Positions 3,140 to 20,929 of a DNA stretch of 32,121 bases are shown here, piece after piece. The DNA comes from Microbacteriaceae bacterium PS02332 (GTDB taxonomy: Bacteria > Actinomycetota > Actinomycetes > Actinomycetales > Microbacteriaceae): contig JASCOJ010000020.1 of NCBI GenBank assembly GCA_029959645.1, forward strand, positions 1-32,121, given 5' to 3'. The notes under the pieces were generated by a model, which was not told the origin of the DNA, did no database searches, and worked only from the letters and a program-made list of their open reading frames with translations. How positions within the stretch are numbered: position 1 is the first letter of the stretch; each line of letters starts with the position of its first letter. The translations under genes were made by a program, and so were the position numbers.

Positions 3140-4335
3140 ACCCCGTGCACGACGCGACCGACCCCCTCGCGGGCCGGTCGCGCTCCGGCCTCGGTCGGGG
3201 GCTGAACGCCCTCGGGGTCGTCGTCGTCGCGGTCTGGTTCGTCCGGAACGGTCTCGAGGAGCACCTCGACCCCTGGGTCTGGGCCGTCGGGGCGGTGGCG
3301 CTCGCCGCGTGGGCCGTCCGCGAGGCCGTCCAGGACCACCGCGTCCTGCTCGTCGCCCTCGCCGTGATGCTCGGCGCCGGTGCCCTCGTCACGGTCCCCA
3401 CGCTCGCGCTCCTCGTCGTGCCGGTCGTCGTCGCCGTCGTCGCCCTCGAGGCCGACGACCGGCTGCCGGTCTGGCTCGGGGGTGTCGCCGCGCTGGTCGC
3501 CGTCGCGGTCGTGGCCGTCGTCGCCCTGCTGACGGGAGCGTCGGTGCAGTTCGTCCTCGGGGTCGTCGGCGGGCTCGCCGTCGGGCTCCTCGCCGGGTAC
3601 TCGCGTCGCCAGGCCCGGGCCGCCGAGCACCGGGCACGGTCGGCGGAGCGGGACCGACAGCGCGCTTCGCTCCTCGCCGACCGCGCCCGGGCGGCGCGGG
3701 ACGTGCACGACGTGCTCGCGCACTCGCTCGGCGGCCTGGTGCTGCAGCTCGACGCCGTCGAGGCGCTCCTCGAGGCCGGCCGCGTCGACGAGGCCGCCGC
3801 TCGGGCCGGTGCCGCGCGGGCCCTCGCCGCGGACGGACTCGCCGAGGCCCGCTCGGCCGTGCGCGTCCTCCGCGACGACGCCGGCAGCGGCCCCGCACCC
3901 GTGACCGCAGCCGACGGGACGGAACCGGACCAGGCCTCCCGGCCGACGGCTCCGAGCGCCGGTCTCGTCCCGCTGGTCGAGGCGCACCGGTCCTTCGGTG
4001 GCGAGGCCGTCGTCCAGGGCGACCTGACGCTCGCCGTCCTCGACGACGCGGTCCGCGACGCCGTGGTCGCGGCCGTCCGGGAGGGGCTCAGCAACGCCCG
4101 CAGGCACGCCCCCGGCAGCGCCGTGTCCCTGTCCGTCATCCGGGACGGCGACGCCGTGGACGTCGTCGTGGCGAACCCGCTCCGGACGGACGGCCACGGG
4201 CTGCGCGGCATGCGGGAGCGCTTCGCCGAGCTCGCCGTCGACGCGACCGTCGAGACGGAGCAGTCCGACGGCGAGTTCGTGGTCGCCGTGCACGTGCCGG
4301 TCGCCGCGCTCACGGACGCGACGGGCACGCCGTGA
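3136..4335 (+). CDS. Sensor histidine kinase, NarL/DesK type
   Basis: A 399-residue membrane sensor kinase that starts at GTG 3136, overlapping the upstream stop. Residues 1-155 contain about five or six hydrophobic helices and no large extracellular domain, suggesting sensing within or near the membrane. A basic linker leads to the HisKA_3 dimerisation domain with ARDVHDVLAHSL; H191 is the likely phosphoacceptor. The HATPase_c domain (about 290-395) has the N-box VREGLSNARRHA and the GHGLRGMRERF G2 box. The usual DNG/DDG G1 motif is replaced by ANPL, a variant seen in some actinobacterial kinases. The kinase would phosphorylate the response regulator encoded immediately downstream with a 4-bp overlap. 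The stimulus is unknown. Confidence 0.92.
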   Translation: MNPVHDATDPLAGRSRSGLGRGLNALGVVVVAVWFVRNGLEEHLDPWVWAVGAVALAAWAVREAVQDHRVLLVALAVMLGAGALVTVPTLALLVVPVVVAVVALEADDRLPVWLGGVAALVAVAVVAVVALLTGASVQFVLGVVGGLAVGLLAGYSRRQARAAEHRARSAERDRQRASLLADRARAARDVHDVLAHSLGGLVLQLDAVEALLEAGRVDEAAARAGAARALAADGLAEARSAVRVLRDDAGSGPAPVTAADGTEPDQASRPTAPSAGLVPLVEAHRSFGGEAVVQGDLTLAVLDDAVRDAVVAAVREGLSNARRHAPGSAVSLSVIRDGDAVDVVVANPLRTDGHGLRGMRERFAELAVDATVETEQSDGEFVVAVHVPVAALTDATGTP

Positions 4336-4994
4336 CGATCCGGGTGCTCGTCGTCGACGACCAGGCGATCGTCCGCGACGGGCTCGTCACGGTGCTCTCG
4401 CTCGTGCCCGACCTCGAGGTCGTCGGTGCCGCGGGCGACGGCGCGGCGGCGATCGCCGCGGTCGAGCGCACCGCCCCGGACGTCGTCCTCATGGACCTCC
4501 GGATGCCGGGCGTCGACGGGCCGACCGCGACGGCGCGGATCACCGCCGCGCACCCCGACGTGGCGGTCCTCGTGCTCACCACGTACGCCGACGACACGTC
4601 GATCACGACCGCGCTCGCGGCGGGCGCCCGCGGGTACCTGACGAAGGACGCCGGGCGGGCGGAGATCGCGACGGCGGTCCGCGCCGTGGCGTCCGGGCAG
4701 ACGACGTTCGACAGTGCCGTCGGGGCGGTGCTCGTCGGCCGGTTGACCGGAGCGACGCCGGCCGCGGCGGCGCAGCCCGGGCGGACGTCCGGGGCCCCGG
4801 TGCACGAGCGCTTCCCGGAGCTCACCCCGCGGGAGGCCGACGTGCTCACCCGCATCGCCGAGGGCCGGACGAACCCGGAGATCGCCGCCGAGCTGTTCCT
4901 GACCGTGCCGACGGTGAAGTCGTACGTCACCCAGGTGTTCGCGAAGCTCGGGGTCCGGTCCCGGGCGGAGGCCGTGGCCCGCGTCCTCCGCTGA
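4332..4994 (+). CDS. LuxR/NarL-family response regulator
   Basis: A 220-residue regulator starting at GTG 4332 within the end of the kinase gene (GTGA overlap), so the two are translationally coupled. The receiver domain (1-120) has the acidic pair D9/D10, phosphoacceptor D55 in VVLMDLRMPG, the conserved Thr in VLTTY and the Lys in GYLTKDA. A linker rich in Ala, Gly and Pro (about 140-155) joins a C-terminal LuxR-type helix-turn-helix, LTPREADVLTRIAEGRTNPE, with the recognition helix near TVPTVKSYVTQVFAKLGVRS. It is expected to bind DNA as a dimer after phosphorylation by the neighbouring kinase. Targets are not evident from the window. Confidence 0.95.
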   Translation: MTIRVLVVDDQAIVRDGLVTVLSLVPDLEVVGAAGDGAAAIAAVERTAPDVVLMDLRMPGVDGPTATARITAAHPDVAVLVLTTYADDTSITTALAAGARGYLTKDAGRAEIATAVRAVASGQTTFDSAVGAVLVGRLTGATPAAAAQPGRTSGAPVHERFPELTPREADVLTRIAEGRTNPEIAAELFLTVPTVKSYVTQVFAKLGVRSRAEAVARVLR

Positions 4995-5276: not shown

Positions 5277-6002
5277 ATGACCGCCGACACGCTCAGCATC
5301 CCCGTCCGCCCCGTCCGCCGGCACACCGGCAGCCGGATCCGACCCGGTGACCGGGTGCGACCGGACGAGCGGGCGCGGCCGGACGAGCGGCAGCGACCGG
5401 ACGAGCGGGCGCGGCCGGACGCCGCAGGTCGGCTGGACGACGCGGCCGGCGCGGGGGACCGCGCGGGGCGCGCGTCGGACGCGCGGCGGGCCTCCCGGCC
5501 GTTGCTCGCCGACACCGAGTCGGCTCCGGCGTGGATGCGGGCGGTCGGTGGCGGGGTCCTGACGGCCGGGCTCGCGCTGTCCGCGGCGGTGCTCGCCTGG
5601 CCGGGTGACGCACCGGAGGTCGGCCTCATCGTCCCCGGTGCCGTCGCGGTCGTCGTCGGGGTGCTGCTCGTCGTGGCCCGCGCCGGGCTCACCGTGACCG
5701 AGACGGACGTCGTGCTGCACTTCCGTCCCCTGCCGCCACGGCGGCTCGCCCGGCGGGCCATCGCCGGCGTGCGCGTCGTCGAGGCGGACGCCGGCACCTA
5801 CGGCGGGGTCGGTCTGCGGCTCGCACGACGGCGTCGCGCACTCATCCTGACCCCGGGCGCCGGGGTGGAGCTCACCGACGACCGCGGCCGCGTCACCTTC
5901 GTCCGCACGCGGTGTGCAACCGCCGCGATCTGCGTCATCACGGGCCGGGAGGCGTCGCGGACCGGTCGTCCCGGCGCCCGCCGGGAGGCCCTGCACGGGT
6001 GA
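5277..6002 (+). CDS. Membrane protein with N-terminal charged repeats, unknown function
   Basis: A 241-residue protein starting at ATG 5277 behind GAGGAG. Residues 1-75 are highly charged and contain the tandem hexad RPDER-A/Q, encoded by a 29-bp exact repeat. Two adjacent hydrophobic segments (about 89-107 and 116-135) make a helical hairpin, after which residues 140-200 look like a small beta-rich cytoplasmic domain ([15 protein letters not shown], then [18 protein letters not shown] and [16 protein letters not shown]). The order 'two helices then a beta domain' recalls bacterial PH-like or DUF3093-type proteins, but I cannot assign it firmly. It sits alone between the two-component operon and the rpoB promoter. 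Confidence 0.7.
5357..5421 (+). repeat. 29-bp exact direct repeat, 36-bp period, coding
   Basis: The same 29 bases occur at 5357-5385 and 5393-5421. The 36-bp period encodes the 12-residue unit [12 protein letters not shown], itself two hexads. The repeat keeps frame and is part of the charged N-terminal tail. Confidence 0.85.
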
Positions 6003-15361: not shown

Positions 15362-15388
15362 CCCGGGCGAGCACCGGCGGGCACCCCT

Positions 15389-15462
15389 GTTCTGGGTGCA
15401 CCCGCAGCCCCGCCGTCCCCTCGTTCTGGGACTGCTCGCGGCGGCACGGCCGGCCGTACCGT
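15389..15462 (+). promoter_or_regulatory. Candidate pilB promoter with paired GTTCTGGG boxes
   Basis: Two copies of GTTCTGGG begin at 15389 and 15423, exactly 34 bp apart. Each is flanked by short inverted arms: GCACCC/GGGTGC (15381-15386 with 15394-15399) and GTCCC/GGGAC (15415-15419 with 15428-15432). A -10-like TACCGT starts at 15457, 34 bp after the second box; no good -35 is present, suggesting activator dependence. The same arrangement precedes the major pilin gene. The first hairpin could instead be the GNAT gene terminator. Confidence 0.45.
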
Positions 15463-15572
15463 GGACGAGCACCGCACCCCTGGCGGACGCAGAACCGACC
15501 GGCTGCACCACTGCGACGGCGGACACACTCGACGCCGCTTCGCCGCGCGTGAAACCAAGGAGGAACGGGGCC

Positions 15573-17243
15573 ATGGCCACCCTGTCCGAGATCCTCATCC
15601 TCAACGGCGCGCTCCCCATCGAGTACCTGGACGCCATGACCGGCGACGAGGACGTCGACGAGCACGCCATCCGCACCCTGGTCGACCAGGGCGTGGTCAG
15701 CGAGGCGCAGTACATCACCGCCCGGGCCGCGACGAACAACTCCCGGACGGTTCCGCTCACCGACTACCCGGTCGACGGCACCGCCGTGTCGATCCTCCCG
15801 GCCCCGCTCTGCCGTCGGCACGCGGTGCTCGGCGTCGGGTTCGAGGGTGAGACGCTCGTCCTCGCGATGGTCAACCCCGCGAACGTGCTCGCGATCGACG
15901 ACGCCCGTGCCGCCTCCGGTCGACCGATCAAGCCGCTGCAGGTCGACGAGCGCGAGCTCCTCGCCGCGCTCGACCGCTACCTCCGCGCCGACGACGAGCT
16001 CAACGACCTGACGTCCTCCCTCGAGGAGGAGGCGACGCGCTCCGCGGAGCAGCAGGCGGACATCGGCGACGGTGCCCTCGACGACGTGCCGATCGTGCGC
16101 TTCGTGAACCTGCTCGTCTCCCAGGCGATCCAGGACCACGCGTCCGACATCCACATCGAACCGGGCGAGCACGAGGTCCGGGTGCGCTACCGCATCGACG
16201 GCGTGCTGCACGAGATGGCGCCGGCGCCGAAGAACATCCAGAACGGCGTGATCAGCCGTCTGAAGATCATGAGCGACATCGACATCGCCGAGCGTCGCAA
16301 GCCCCAGGACGGCCGCATGTCGGTGCGCCACGGCGGCCGCCAGATCGACCTCCGTGTGGCGACGCTGCCCACCGTGTGGGGCGAGAAGGTCGTCATGCGG
16401 ATCCTCGACAACACGAACACGTCGCTGACCCTGAAAGACCTCAACCTGCTCGACCAGAACGCCCGGGCCTACCAGAAGTCGTACTCGAAGCCCTACGGCA
16501 TGATCCTGGTCACCGGTCCGACGGGCTCCGGCAAGTCGACGACGCTGTACACGACCCTGAACGCGGTCGCGAAGCCCGAGATCAACGTCATCACCGTCGA
16601 GGACCCGGTCGAGTACCGGATGGCCGGCATCAACCAGGTGCAGGTCAACCCGAAGGCCGGGCTCACCTTCGCCTCCGCGCTCCGCAGCATCCTGCGGTCC
16701 GACCCCGACGTCGTGCTCCTCGGTGAGATCCGTGACCACGAGACCGCGCAGATCGCGATCGAGGCCTCGCTCACCGGTCACCTCGTGCTCTCCACCCTGC
16801 ACACCAACGACGCCCCGTCCGCGGTCACCCGTCTCACCGAGATGGACATCGAGCCGTTCCTGGTCGGGTCCGCGCTCGACTGCGTCGTGGCCCAGCGCCT
16901 CGCGCGGAAGCTCTGCGACCGGTGCAAGGCGCCCGCCGTGTACGAGCCCGAGCAGCTGCACGCCCTGGGCTTCCTGCCCTCCGCCGATGCCCCTGTGCCG
17001 GAGTTCTCCGCCCCGGTCGGCTGCGCGGTGTGCTCGAACACCGGCTACCGCGGCCGCATCGCCCTGCACGAGGTGATGACCGTGTCCGAGGAGATCGAGC
17101 GGCTCGCCGTCGCCCGTGCCTCGAGCGCCGAGATCAGCCGTGTCGCCCAGGAGCAGGGCATGCTCACCCTCCGGCAGGACGGGTGGGAGAAGGTCAAGCT
17201 CGGCCTGACGAGCGTCGACGAGATCCTGCGCGTGGTCGCGTAG
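15573..17243 (+). CDS. pilB: Type IV pilus extension ATPase PilB (GspE family)
   Basis: A 556-residue hexameric motor ATPase that powers pilin polymerisation at the membrane. The start ATG 15573 follows a strong AAGGAGG at 9-nt spacing. Residues 1-150 are a GspE/PilB N-terminal domain. The core has the family's DHASDIHIEPGEHEVRVRYR segment, Walker A GPTGSGKS (315-322), the Asp box with EDPVEYR, Walker B DPDVVLLGEIRD and the His box TGHLVLSTLHTNDA. A tetracysteine zinc site (C448, C451, C484, C487) separates PilB/GspE from PilT. First gene of the pilus locus, 20 nt before pilT. Confidence 0.96.
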   Translation: MATLSEILILNGALPIEYLDAMTGDEDVDEHAIRTLVDQGVVSEAQYITARAATNNSRTVPLTDYPVDGTAVSILPAPLCRRHAVLGVGFEGETLVLAMVNPANVLAIDDARAASGRPIKPLQVDERELLAALDRYLRADDELNDLTSSLEEEATRSAEQQADIGDGALDDVPIVRFVNLLVSQAIQDHASDIHIEPGEHEVRVRYRIDGVLHEMAPAPKNIQNGVISRLKIMSDIDIAERRKPQDGRMSVRHGGRQIDLRVATLPTVWGEKVVMRILDNTNTSLTLKDLNLLDQNARAYQKSYSKPYGMILVTGPTGSGKSTTLYTTLNAVAKPEINVITVEDPVEYRMAGINQVQVNPKAGLTFASALRSILRSDPDVVLLGEIRDHETAQIAIEASLTGHLVLSTLHTNDAPSAVTRLTEMDIEPFLVGSALDCVVAQRLARKLCDRCKAPAVYEPEQLHALGFLPSADAPVPEFSAPVGCAVCSNTGYRGRIALHEVMTVSEEIERLAVARASSAEISRVAQEQGMLTLRQDGWEKVKLGLTSVDEILRVVA

Positions 17244-17263
17244 CCGGACCGGGAGCCCACGAC

Positions 17264-18982
17264 ATGACCGACTCCGTCTACGACCTCACCCCCGCCGGCG
17301 ACGAGCCCGTCGCCGGGTGGCACCCCGGTGCGCCCGGCAACGAGGTGGGCGGCCGCCGCGCAGCGCGCCTCGCGGCGACCGGCCAGCAGCCCCTCGTCCC
17401 GCCGACCGCACCGCCCGCGGCTGCGCCCGCACCCGCCGCCGAGCACGTCTACGACCTCAGCGACGACTTCGCCGCGTTCGGCGCTCCGGCGGCCGACCCC
17501 TACGCCGCCTTGCCGACGGCGCCCGCCGAGCCGTCCGTCGGTGTCAGTGGCTGGCCCGCGCCGAGTGGCGCTCCGGTCGCCGTGCCGGTGGCCCAGCCGT
17601 ACGCGGCGCCGGCGACCCCGCCGGCGGCCGTCCCACCGACGATGGCGTCCTACGGCTACGCCGAGCAGGCGACCCAGTACCTGCCGGTCGCACCTGTGGA
17701 CGCCACTCCGGGCCTCCCGGCCGTCGACACGTACGCCGCTCCGACCTACGGAGCTCCCGAAGTGTACGCGGCGCCACCGCAGGCCGCACCCGTGAACTCC
17801 GCCGAGATCCACTTCACCCGCCACGCCCGCGAGGACGCCGACGCCGACCTCATCACCGCGCTGTCGCAGGTGGTCTACCAGGGTGCGTCCGACCTCCACG
17901 TCACCGCCGACGCCCCGCCCACCGTGCGCGTCGACGGCTCGCTCCGTCCGGCCGTGCCGGGAGGCCCGTGGGCACGCAACAAGATCATCGCGGCGCTCAG
18001 GACGCTGATGAGCGCCGAACAGGCTGCGCAGTTCGATGCCGAGCAGGAGCTCGACTTCGCGTACTCGCTGTCGCCGGAGTACCGCTTCCGCGTGAACTAC
18101 TACCAGCAGCGCGGCAACTGGGGCGCGGCGTTCCGCATCATCCCCACGAAGATCAAGACCCTCAAGCAGCTCGGCATCCCGGAGCACGTCGGCGAGTTCG
18201 CGAAGCTCCCGCGTGGGCTCGTGCTGGTCACCGGGCCGACCGGTTCCGGCAAGTCGACGACGCTCGCCGCGCTCATCGACCTCGTGAACGAGACCCGTGC
18301 CGACCACATCGTGACGGTCGAGGACCCGATCGAGTTCATGCACGAGCACAAGAAGGCGATCATCAACCAGCGCGAGGTCGGCGCGGACACGCACTCGTTC
18401 GCCCGCGCCCTCAAGCACGTGCTCCGTCAGGACCCGGACGTCATCCTCATCGGTGAGCTCCGCGACCTCGAGACCATCTCGGTGGCGCTGACCGCCGCGG
18501 AGACCGGTCACCTCGTCTTCGCGACGCTGCACACGCAGAGCGCGCCCGGCACCATCGACCGTGTCATCGACGTGTTCCCGCCGCACCAGCAGGGGCAGAT
18601 CCGCACGCAGCTCGCCGCGACCCTCGAGGGCGTCGTCTGCCAGACGCTCGTCCCGAAGGCGAACGGCGCCGGCCGTGTGGTCTCGACCGAGATCATGAAG
18701 ACCACCCCTGCGATCGGCAACCTCATCCGCGAGGGCAAGACCTACCAGATCACCTCGGCCATGCAGGCCGGGCGTGACTCGGGCATGCACACCATGGACC
18801 AGGACCTCGCCGAACTGGTCAACGTCGGGACGATCACCCGCAAGGCCGCGCTCGAGAAGGTGCACGACGAGGAGGGCTTCGACCGGCTGGTGCAGCGGGT
18901 CGAGTCGCCGTCCGACGCGTCCGCCGACGCCATCGCCGCCAGCGGGATCGACTTCGGCGACAAGTTCTCCGGAGGCTACTGA
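17264..18982 (+). CDS. pilT: Type IV pilus retraction ATPase PilT with long N-terminal extension
   Basis: A 572-residue ATPase; usual PilT is about 350. ATG 17264 follows GGGAG. Residues 1 to about 185 form a Pro/Ala/Tyr-rich, low-complexity extension that carries VYDL at both ~5 and ~62. The PilT core then begins (DLITALSQVVYQGASDLHVT), with Walker A GPTGSGKS (324-331), EDPIEF, Walker B DPDVILIGELRD, the His box LVFATLHTQSA and the PilT signature AIGNLIREGKTYQ near the C terminus (canonical AIRNLIRE). There is no tetracysteine site. It is expected to depolymerise pili, giving twitching or DNA uptake. Its stop overlaps the pilC start. Confidence 0.95.
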   Translation: MTDSVYDLTPAGDEPVAGWHPGAPGNEVGGRRAARLAATGQQPLVPPTAPPAAAPAPAAEHVYDLSDDFAAFGAPAADPYAALPTAPAEPSVGVSGWPAPSGAPVAVPVAQPYAAPATPPAAVPPTMASYGYAEQATQYLPVAPVDATPGLPAVDTYAAPTYGAPEVYAAPPQAAPVNSAEIHFTRHAREDADADLITALSQVVYQGASDLHVTADAPPTVRVDGSLRPAVPGGPWARNKIIAALRTLMSAEQAAQFDAEQELDFAYSLSPEYRFRVNYYQQRGNWGAAFRIIPTKIKTLKQLGIPEHVGEFAKLPRGLVLVTGPTGSGKSTTLAALIDLVNETRADHIVTVEDPIEFMHEHKKAIINQREVGADTHSFARALKHVLRQDPDVILIGELRDLETISVALTAAETGHLVFATLHTQSAPGTIDRVIDVFPPHQQGQIRTQLAATLEGVVCQTLVPKANGAGRVVSTEIMKTTPAIGNLIREGKTYQITSAMQAGRDSGMHTMDQDLAELVNVGTITRKAALEKVHDEEGFDRLVQRVESPSDASADAIAASGIDFGDKFSGGY

Positions 18983-20205
18983 TGTCCCTCGCCTACGACT
19001 ACCGCGGCCGCGACGGCGCCGGCAAGCTCGTCAAGGGGCGCCTCGACGCCGCGTCCGAGGGTGCCGTCGTGCAGCGGCTGCGAGGCATGGGCGTCTCGCC
19101 GATCGCGATCACGCAGGCGAAGGCCGGCACCGGGCTGCAGACCGAGATCAAGATCCCCGGGTTCGAGAAGGGCGTCGGGCTCAAGGACCTGGCGATCATG
19201 GCCCGGCAGGCATCGACGATGCTCTCGTCCGGCCTGTCGCTGCTCCGGGCGCTGTCGATCCTGGCGGACCAGACCGAGAACAAGAAGCTCAAGGACAACC
19301 TCGGACAGGTCCGCAACGAGGTCGAACGCGGGGTCTCGTTCTCGGATGCCATCGCGAAGTTCCCGGTCGACTTCCCGCCGATCATGATCAACATGATCCG
19401 CGCCGGGGAGACCGGCGGGTTCCTCGACCAGGCGATGGACTCGATCGCGACGAACTTCGAGAAGGAGCACAAGCTCCGGTCCACGATCAAGTCGGCGATG
19501 ACCTACCCGGTCGTCGTGTTGTGCATGTCCCTCGCAGCAGTCGTCATCATGCTCCTCTTCATCGTCCCGATCTTCCAGAACATGTTCACGTCGCTGGGCG
19601 GCGAGCTCCCGTTGCCCACGATGATGCTCGTCTACGCATCGCACGCCATGAAGTTCGTGGTCCCGGTGCTCATCCCCGTGATCATCGTCGCCGTGCTCTG
19701 GTGGCGCGCGAACAAGAACACCGATCGGGTCCGCGCATTCGTCGACCCCTGGAAACTCCGGCTCCCGGTGTTCGGGCAATTGAACCAGAAGATCGTCATC
19801 GCGCGTTTCGCGCGGAACTTCTCCAACATGATCGGCGCTGGCGTACCCATTCTCCAGGCATTGGGGATCGTCGGTCAGGTGGCGAACAACTTCGTCGTCC
19901 AACGCGCGCTCGAGCGCGTTGCCGAAGCGGTCCGCAAAGGGGAATCGATCGCCGTGCCGCTCGAGAAAGAGCGTGCATTCCCGGCGATGGTCTCGCAAAT
20001 GGTCGCAGTCGGCGAGGACGCCGGTTCGCTCGAGACGATGCTCGAGAAGATCGCGGTCTTCTACGATTCCGAAGTCGAATCGACGACCGAAGCGCTCACG
20101 TCACTCATCGAGCCGTTGTTGATCGCATTCCTCGGTGTCGTCGTCGGCGGCATGATCGTCGCGCTCTACCTCCCCATCTTCAAGATCACGTCGCTGATCC
20201 ACTGA
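18982..20205 (+). CDS. pilC: Type IV pilus inner-membrane platform protein PilC (GspF family)
   Basis: A 407-residue polytopic protein that sits between the ATPases and the growing filament. ATG 18982 overlaps the pilT stop (TGATG) and has GGAGG upstream. Two homologous GspF domains are visible: LAIMARQASTMLSSGLSLLR with INMIRAGETGGFLDQAM, and IARFARNFSNMIGAGVPIL with VAVGEDAGSLETMLEKIA. Three membrane helices follow the usual pattern (about 172-192, 220-240 and 375-398). From about 19740 onward codon choice changes, with GAA, AAA, TTG, CAA and ATT appearing often, whereas the first half is almost purely G/C-ending. The protein itself is intact. Confidence 0.95.
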   Translation: MSLAYDYRGRDGAGKLVKGRLDAASEGAVVQRLRGMGVSPIAITQAKAGTGLQTEIKIPGFEKGVGLKDLAIMARQASTMLSSGLSLLRALSILADQTENKKLKDNLGQVRNEVERGVSFSDAIAKFPVDFPPIMINMIRAGETGGFLDQAMDSIATNFEKEHKLRSTIKSAMTYPVVVLCMSLAAVVIMLLFIVPIFQNMFTSLGGELPLPTMMLVYASHAMKFVVPVLIPVIIVAVLWWRANKNTDRVRAFVDPWKLRLPVFGQLNQKIVIARFARNFSNMIGAGVPILQALGIVGQVANNFVVQRALERVAEAVRKGESIAVPLEKERAFPAMVSQMVAVGEDAGSLETMLEKIAVFYDSEVESTTEALTSLIEPLLIAFLGVVVGGMIVALYLPIFKITSLIH

Positions 20206-20219
20206 CCGCGATCCCGCGG

Positions 20220-20241
20220 GCGCAGCGCGTATGCCCTGCGC
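20220..20241 (+). terminator. Possible attenuator after pilC
   Basis: GCGCAG (20220-20225) pairs with CTGCGC (20236-20241) around a 10-nt loop, 15 nt past the pilC stop. No T-run follows. It may partly separate pilBTC transcription from the pilin unit. Confidence 0.3.
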
Positions 20242-20292
20242 TGGCACTTCTTCGTGACGTGTCCGGGGGGCATGATCCGAGCGGCCCCCCCG

Positions 20293-20365
20293 GTTCTGGG
20301 GGTATTTCGTTGCCCCATCACCCCCCGTTCTCGGGATTCCGCCCGGAATGCCGTGTCAATACGCT
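20293..20365 (+). promoter_or_regulatory. Candidate major-pilin promoter with paired GTTCT boxes
   Basis: GTTCTGGG begins at 20293 and GTTCTCGGG at 20327, 34 bp apart as at pilB. Flanking arms are CCCCC/GGGGG (20287-20291 with 20298-20302) and CCCG/CGGG (20324-20327 with 20332-20335). A weak -35 TTCCGC (20337-20342) and a -10 TACGCT (20360-20365) are spaced 17 bp and lie 33 bp after the second box. CGGGATTCCG and CGGAATGCCG (20332-20341, 20344-20353) form a further imperfect palindrome here. An alternative reading is that the first hairpin, followed by TATTTCG, terminates pilBTC. Confidence 0.45.
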
Positions 20366-20431
20366 CGTAGTGGCGGCAGAGCACGGCCCCGTTCCCCTTC
20401 ACCAAAGATTTCCGAAAGAGTGGAAAACACC

Positions 20432-20929
20432 ATGTACGCAGCGCTCATGGGCAAGCTCAATGCTCGCCGCAAGGGTCTTCTCGCAGACAACGACAAGGGC
20501 TTCACGCTCATCGAACTCCTCGTCGTCGTGATCATCATCGGCATCCTCGCCGCGATCGCCATCCCCGTGTACCTCGGCGTGCAGAACAACGCCAAGGACT
20601 CGGGTGTCCAGAACGACGTCTCGAACTTCAAGACGGCCGTTGTGTCCGTCCAGACGCAGAACAGCGGCACGCTCCCGAATGCCCAGGACTTCGCAGCCGC
20701 CACTGGCATCGATAACACCGCGTCCTTCGGCGCCACCGGCGCCACCACCGCCGGGCAGAAGTGGAGCGACGCCGGCGCTACTTGGAGCGACGCCGAGAAG
20801 ACCATCAACTACAAGCGACTGTCGGACACGACCTTCTGTGTCCAGGGCACGAGCACCACGGGCAAGACGTTCTTCGCGACGCAGACCGCAGGCGTGAAGT
20901 CCGGGACCTGCCCGACCACGACCCCGTGA
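20432..20929 (+). CDS. pilA: Major type IV pilin (prepilin)
   Basis: A 165-residue type IV prepilin starting at ATG 20432, with a purine-rich GAAAGAG upstream. The 23-residue charged leader ends in DNDKG; cleavage before F24 would leave FTLIELLVVVIIIGILAAIA, a textbook N-methylated pilin helix with Glu at mature position 5. The globular part is small (about 115 residues) and rich in Thr, Ser and Ala. C136 and C160 near the C terminus can form the D-region disulfide. An in-frame 21-bp duplication gives WSDAGAT-WSDAEKT. The gene has its own candidate promoter and a hairpin right after it, as expected for the most abundant subunit. Confidence 0.95.
   Translation: MYAALMGKLNARRKGLLADNDKGFTLIELLVVVIIIGILAAIAIPVYLGVQNNAKDSGVQNDVSNFKTAVVSVQTQNSGTLPNAQDFAAATGIDNTASFGATGATTAGQKWSDAGATWSDAEKTINYKRLSDTTFCVQGTSTTGKTFFATQTAGVKSGTCPTTTP
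20762..20795 (+). repeat. 21-bp period in-frame duplication within the pilin
   Basis: TGGAGCGACGCCG occurs at 20762-20774 and 20783-20795. The 21-bp period encodes two seven-residue units starting WSDA in the predicted surface part of the pilin. Confidence 0.8.

Follow-up and report, generated by a model that had tools for sequence, protein, structure and literature searches.

Conserved tandem boxes upstream of pilB and pilA, type IV pilus genes of Curtobacterium, shared in part by other Microbacteriaceae

We analyzed a 32,121-nucleotide stretch of DNA from Microbacteriaceae bacterium PS02332 (here called the window; contig JASCOJ010000020.1, i.e., C122 of the host genome G000, which comprises 3.52 Mb in 339 contigs) that carries a cluster of type IV pilus (T4P) genes. 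Both pilB, the gene of the pilus extension ATPase, and the pilin gene pilA are preceded by two short boxes, each a C-run and a G-run, and by a -10-like hexamer at a near-fixed distance. This tandem arrangement is real and nearly exclusive to pilus promoters, and it is kept across Curtobacterium and partly across the family. The boxes probably act at the DNA level as paired operator sites of a single trans-acting, likely dimeric DNA-binding protein governing the pilus genes, most likely an activator. The host genus is taken to be Curtobacterium because the nearest relatives of the host pilC are from that genus (78 to 88% identical).

Tandem boxes in the window

The original prediction had described matching pairs of GTTCT-centered boxes ahead of pilB and pilA. 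Its positions proved exact (GTTCTGGG at 15389, 15423, and 20293; GTTCTCGGG at 20327), as did the spacing of 34 bp within each pair and the hexamers TACCGT at 15457 and TACGCT at 20360. The features of the two promoters, in window coordinates, are as follows.

15384..15396, + strand: pilB distal box, CCCC-N6-GGG; such a partner lies 33 to 34 bp above the proximal box in 39/43 pilB promoters of Curtobacterium
15417..15433, + strand: pilB proximal box, CCCC-N7-GGGACT; the pattern CCC-N5-8-GGG with TANNNT 21 to 27 bp on is present in 43/43 Curtobacterium and 58/72 other pilB regions
15457..15462, + strand: inferred pilB -10 hexamer, TACCGT; 28 to 29 bp from the proximal G-run start in 43/43; Curtobacterium consensus, TAGCGT
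15573..17243, + strand: pilB, pilus extension ATPase; best match TIGR02538, under the cut-off of the model
20265..20270, + strand: degenerate third site of pilA, with a G-run lying 33 bp upstream of that of the distal box and no C-run kept here
20285..20302, + strand: pilA distal box, C7-N6-G5; also scores as terminator-like
20321..20338, + strand: pilA proximal box, CCCCCC-GTTCTC-GGGATT; pattern in 44/44 Curtobacterium and 26/75 other pilA regions
20360..20365, + strand: inferred pilA -10 hexamer, TACGCT; 27 to 28 bp from the proximal G-run start in 44/44
20432..20929, + strand: pilA, pilin with N-terminal methylation motif (PF07963)

Boxes of the form CCC-N5-7-GGG occur 93 times in the window (46 and 47 on the two strands). 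Only those with proximal G-runs at 15428 and 20333 combine a partner 33 to 35 bp upstream with a TANNNT hexamer 26 to 30 bp downstream.

Conservation in Curtobacterium

Forty-four loci of the Curtobacterium group (one labelled only Microbacteriaceae and one from a metagenome-assembled genome) were read directly and measured together with the window. The pilA set (n = 44) excludes L074, a locus with an N run in its stretch (a pilA-type promoter follows the N run), and the pilB set (n = 43) reflects two loci that end before the pilB start. At pilA, CCCC(C)-N5-7-GGGG(G) is followed 34 to 35 bp on by a box reading CCCCCGTTCTCGGGAT with few changes. A partner lies 33 to 35 bp upstream of the proximal box in all 44 promoters, among which we also counted 42 third boxes located 65 to 70 bp above the proximal one. 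At pilB, CCCC-N-TGGG is followed 33 to 34 bp on by CCCC-N7-GGGACT and then by a TAGCGT-like hexamer. The proximal box is near-invariant along its length in Curtobacterium, and the distal box is less so. In dinucleotide-shuffled sequences, the mean counts were 0.88 for pilA (versus 44 of 44 observed) and 0.38 for pilB (versus 43 of 43). Absence of the pair from relatives had been named beforehand as grounds for rejecting the signal; the pair is kept across nearly all Curtobacterium.

The part of the box proposed to be recognized needs correction. The center varies in relatives (e.g., GCACT, GGTACT, GTTACT, and CATTCT), and a literal GTTCT pair stands at the pil genes in just 2 of 66 other Curtobacterium genomes (G021 and G041). 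The conserved core is CCC(C)-N6/7-GGG, extended by AYT in the proximal box. In the pilC-pilA region of L070, the 34-bp box unit is duplicated exactly head-to-tail (unit starts at 5298 and 5332), and L068 has three boxes, which suggests that arrays expand by adding units of equal length.

Specificity across genomes

A pair pattern free of GTTCT matched 65 of 67 Curtobacterium genomes and had three places outside the pil genes, one each in G001, G061, and G066 (those in G061 and G066 are alike); the reversed control of this pattern gave one match. Places were assigned to pilB or pilA by their spacing (4.6 to 5.2 kb apart) or by matched letters. As for the two genomes with no match, G045 is without PilB by protein search, alone among eight Curtobacterium genomes tested, while G054 has PilB and carries a pilB distal box with three C residues only. 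The tandem boxes plus -10 layout was found at 83 places in the 558 kb of the 44 Curtobacterium loci (39 at pilB, 43 at pilA, and 1 in L074). The pilB proximal pattern on its own found pilB in 39 of 41 genomes, together with eight scattered sites in seven genomes.

A stricter pattern (ACCCCC-N4-6-GCGGGAYT), applied to 32 genomes, found 11 places in eight of them (reversed control, 2). By position, these comprised four pilB (G360, G260, G188, and G067), three pilA (G360, G241, and G172), and four other places; the pattern is too strict for a census. Matches to the literal GTTCT pattern across 150 genomes were mostly unrelated. The pair itself is nearly confined to pil promoters in Curtobacterium rather than common at unrelated genes, the other outcome that had been named as fatal to the signal.

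Other members of the Microbacteriaceae

PilB is patchily distributed in the family, with matches at E <= 1e-100 in 127 of 259 sampled genomes (more distant types included). Outside Curtobacterium, we scored 75 pilA and 72 pilB regions, taken from 16 named loci and from stretches of 59 further genomes, for CCC-N5-8-GGG with TANNNT 21 to 27 bp on. The proximal box was present in 58 of the pilB regions (shuffle mean, 1.06) and in 26 of the pilA regions (shuffle mean, 0.96). At pilA, the partner at 33 to 35 bp is common here too (22 boxes among the 26). The pilB boxes of several genera read GCGGGACTG or GCGGGTATGG.

Promoter type and RNA structure

No -35 element with fewer than two mismatches to TTGACA was found at 171 promoters, and the TANNNT -10 element lies at a near-fixed place (within a preset range). 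The proposal of a two-site operator common to pilB and pilA at promoters with a weak -35 is supported: the promoters lack a good -35, and the boxes are conserved and rare elsewhere.

The arms of the boxes had further been described as compensating. We examined seven box sets at arm positions 3 to 9, and covariation beyond CCC/GGG exceeded partner shuffles (<=8 of 300) at 3 of 49 positions (pilB distal positions 6 and 9 and position 7 of the pilA proximal box of other Microbacteriaceae). Pairing at the other 46 was no better than with shuffled partners, and that description is not supported. The fold z-scores of the four box stretches were ordinary (-0.55 to -1.70), and a search of the boxes against Rfam gave no match, so the RNA hairpins that had been offered as an alternative are not supported. 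A role as terminators had also been considered. No terminator-like site (i.e., a GC-rich stem with a T-run) was found at pilB, where such a role is unlikely; at pilA, the distal box scores as terminator-like and might have that role, and the proximal box does not score. Since the arms hardly covary and the RNA folds are unremarkable, a DNA operator fits the boxes best.

A possible third target

A third GTTCT pair of the host, again spaced by exactly 34 bp, is located at C25:3735-3776. It is flanked by a gene for an Nramp-type transporter and by an operon that runs on the opposite strand.

L130:1504-3615 (host contig C25): accessory operon encoding a Ras-like GTPase and a roadblock protein

The first gene of this operon encodes a 228-amino-acid protein that has no Pfam family above the cut-off. 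The GTPase is Ras-like, with ATP_bind_1 and MMR_HSR1 above the cut-off, and the operon also encodes a roadblock/LC7 protein (Robl_LC7) and a small protein without a match. The 228-amino-acid protein is matched in eight of the 67 Curtobacterium genomes, once as a fragment only. Six of these eight have it at a distance of 17 to 21 kb from the pil promoters, and the remaining two have it on another contig. Boxes at the operon were aligned by eye and checked by script. Six other genomes have GCCC-N4-GGGGGC with TTGGAT exactly 30 bp past the G-run start, in the direction of the operon. The host has GCCC-N5-GGGGGC twice before the operon, the nearer copy 30 bp ahead of TTCAAT. The strict pair pattern misses this site. 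We regard the GTPase operon as a third target of the same signal, with less certainty than pilB and pilA. The operon resembles conservon- and Mgl-type GTPase modules.

Beside the operon, four genomes carry a gene for a putative transcription regulator with ABATE and zf-CGNR domains (L130:726-1421; also L127, L128, and L129).

Search for the regulator

A LuxR-type response regulator is encoded at positions 4332 to 4994 of the window, together with a histidine kinase, upstream of rpoB. It was not found in L127, the matching 19.9-kb stretch of G066 from pilB to the GTPase operon (the rest of G066 was not searched). G066 keeps both pil box pairs, and we therefore do not favor this candidate. More generally, G000 has 21 GerE matches. 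Among the GerE proteins of ten genomes (all were read in G000 and a subset elsewhere), some recur in several box-bearing genomes and none was tied to pili. The conserved neighbors of the pil genes at 40 loci of the family are pil genes and rpoC, with no transcription factor recognized from the starts of the sequences (no Pfam search was run).

A WhiG switch was also considered and set aside. No WhiG/FliA protein scored above the TIGR02479 cut-off in any of ten genomes (the best host score was 128.6 versus 189.6 bits), although all ten have weaker sigma-factor matches. The flagellar-type promoter TAAA-N14-16-GCCGATAA is matched with four mismatches at pilA and six at pilB in the window, and it occurs within two mismatches in 1 of 120 pilA regions and 0 of 115 pilB regions.

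Genomic setting and side observations

The pil cluster (pilB, pilT, pilC, pilA, and more) lies downstream of rpoB-rpoC in the window and is followed by genes read as rpsL and rpsG (named from the translated sequence). In the pilA leaders, including window positions 20380 to 20440, the ribosome-binding site often lies, by eye, inside a small inverted repeat with varying arms, i.e., CATTC..GAATGGA in many Curtobacterium and CTGTC..GACAGGA in other genera. The repeat of the window itself is weak (fold z, 0.73). Such a repeat might form an RNA hairpin controlling pilin translation.

Downstream of a membrane-protein gene, at L011:1490-1590 (C271:2608-2685 in the host), GTTCTCGGCAGGCACC occurs three times at intervals of 35 bp. 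This local tandem repeat seems to have no relation to the pil boxes.

Discussion

The geometry of the promoters suggests how the operator would work. A protein dimer may bind each box, whose CCC and GGG are separated by about one helical turn, and neighboring dimers may help each other. If the usual 7 bp from the -10 element to the start is assumed, the box centers lie near -45 (proximal) and -79 (distal). The proximal dimer would then recruit RNA polymerase to a promoter that has no usable -35, and the assembly ATPase and the pilin would be switched on together.

Several observations weigh against a tandem operator bound by one regulator. The 34-bp spacing does not correspond to an integral number of helical turns, and the C-run to G-run spacing of 4 to 8 outside Curtobacterium is loose for a single dimer site. 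Outside that genus, moreover, the share of pilA regions with a proximal box is low, and the tandem partner is nearly lacking at pilB (three boxes at 32 to 35 bp among 58). By eye, no box was seen in the T4P loci whose PilB is about 51 to 58% identical (L172 to L176 and L178 to L180) or in some nearer loci such as L181, L184, and, at pilA, L133 and L190. The site at the GTPase operon has a gap of 4 to 5 and a -10 element that is not TANNNT, and its second box is present in the host genome only. The reversed pilB proximal pattern gave 34 matches, which indicates that single boxes are not rare by themselves. The patterns were derived from these same promoters with a preset -10 range; hence, the shuffle counts gauge specificity and not prediction. 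Many of the sampled genomes are closely related, and some stretches duplicate named loci (L134 and L085; L146 and L087), so the family counts are likewise not independent predictions.

Other explanations can be compared with the operator on the same evidence. The proximal C-run and GGGAYT could be part of the core promoter, read together with the -10 element by an alternative sigma factor or a polymerase-bound protein, the upstream boxes being auxiliary. The near-invariance of the Curtobacterium proximal box relative to the distal one would suit this explanation, as would the pilB promoters outside Curtobacterium, which mostly have the proximal box alone at a near-fixed distance from the -10 element. 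We nevertheless consider it rather unlikely, since the 21 to 23 bp that separate GGGAYT from TANNNT exceed the usual -35/-10 spacer, the -10 hexamers resemble the ordinary sigma-70 type, neither a WhiG/FliA protein above the cut-off (in the ten genomes) nor a flagellar-type consensus (at the window promoters) was found, and repetition of the boxes at 34 bp is not a core-promoter trait. Binding by a repressor, or by a silencing protein that cooperates over two or three sites, instead of by an activator is also unlikely. Tandem cooperating sites would suit a repressor as well, and the proximal site would lie near the expected -35; however, the sites are upstream of the -10 element and not across the start, and promoters with no good -35, as here, would be weak unless assisted.

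Very improbable, in our view, is that the boxes are stem-loops or terminators in transcripts coming from the genes that precede pilB and pilA. The terminator-like score of the distal pilA box and the long arms of the most distal pilA box in some species (L046 and L054) point that way, but the pairing beyond CCC/GGG, the folds, the Rfam search, and the lack of a terminator-like site at pilB all speak against it, as do the fixed distances from the boxes to the -10 element. Chance runs of C and G in a G+C-rich genome can be practically dismissed. Single boxes are frequent, as the count in the window illustrates, but the full layout marks the pilB and the pilA promoter in nearly every Curtobacterium genome and is almost absent from other places, which already refutes chance.

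On the basis of the tandem operator, we put forward a broader proposal tentatively, rating it somewhat below an even chance. The Microbacteriaceae may own a dedicated T4P master regulator, unrelated to PilR and to the WhiG switch, that assembles on 34-bp repeats at pilA and pilB. The same protein may, in Curtobacterium, also have captured the Ras-like GTPase/roadblock module, tying pilus building to an Mgl-type switch. The small, sharply defined operator common to motor and pilin is a direct bait for the missing regulator and a simple means of reporting the conditions or times of pilus production. The connection with the GTPase operon offers a testable clue to how pilus placement or timing might come about.

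Dedicated control of a pilin promoter is familiar from Gram-negative bacteria, in which PilS/PilR controls pilA. PilR works with sigma-54 at -24/-12 promoters, whereas the promoters described here have a TANNNT -10 element. The boxes also recall the operators of NarL/FixJ (LuxR-type) regulators, such as TACCC-N6-GGGTA for NarL and the GGGACT boxes of DosR/DevR. Shared features are the inverted CCC/GGG half-sites about one turn apart, the several tandem sites, and, at a promoter with a poor -35, the placement of the proximal site near -42 to -45. The half-sites are suggestive only, as many regulator families have such sites. Unlike NarL/FixJ operators, the boxes have an asymmetric right half with an AYT extension, their C-run to G-run spacing varies outside Curtobacterium, and a cognate regulator was not found among the pil neighbors or the GerE lists of ten genomes.

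Targeted literature searches found no described control of Microbacteriaceae pili, and the sole transcriptional control of actinobacterial T4P met in these searches was that by WhiG in Rubrobacter and Actinoplanes. According to the published account, this sigma factor controls T4P promoters in both genera (PMC8325347), and its signal is a flagellar-type promoter, TAAA / GCCGATAA (PMC8325347). The WhiG system resembles the one described here in that one dedicated signal is common to several units of an actinobacterial T4P cluster, and it differs in the signal itself, a flagellar-type promoter there and tandem CCC-N6/7-GGG boxes here.

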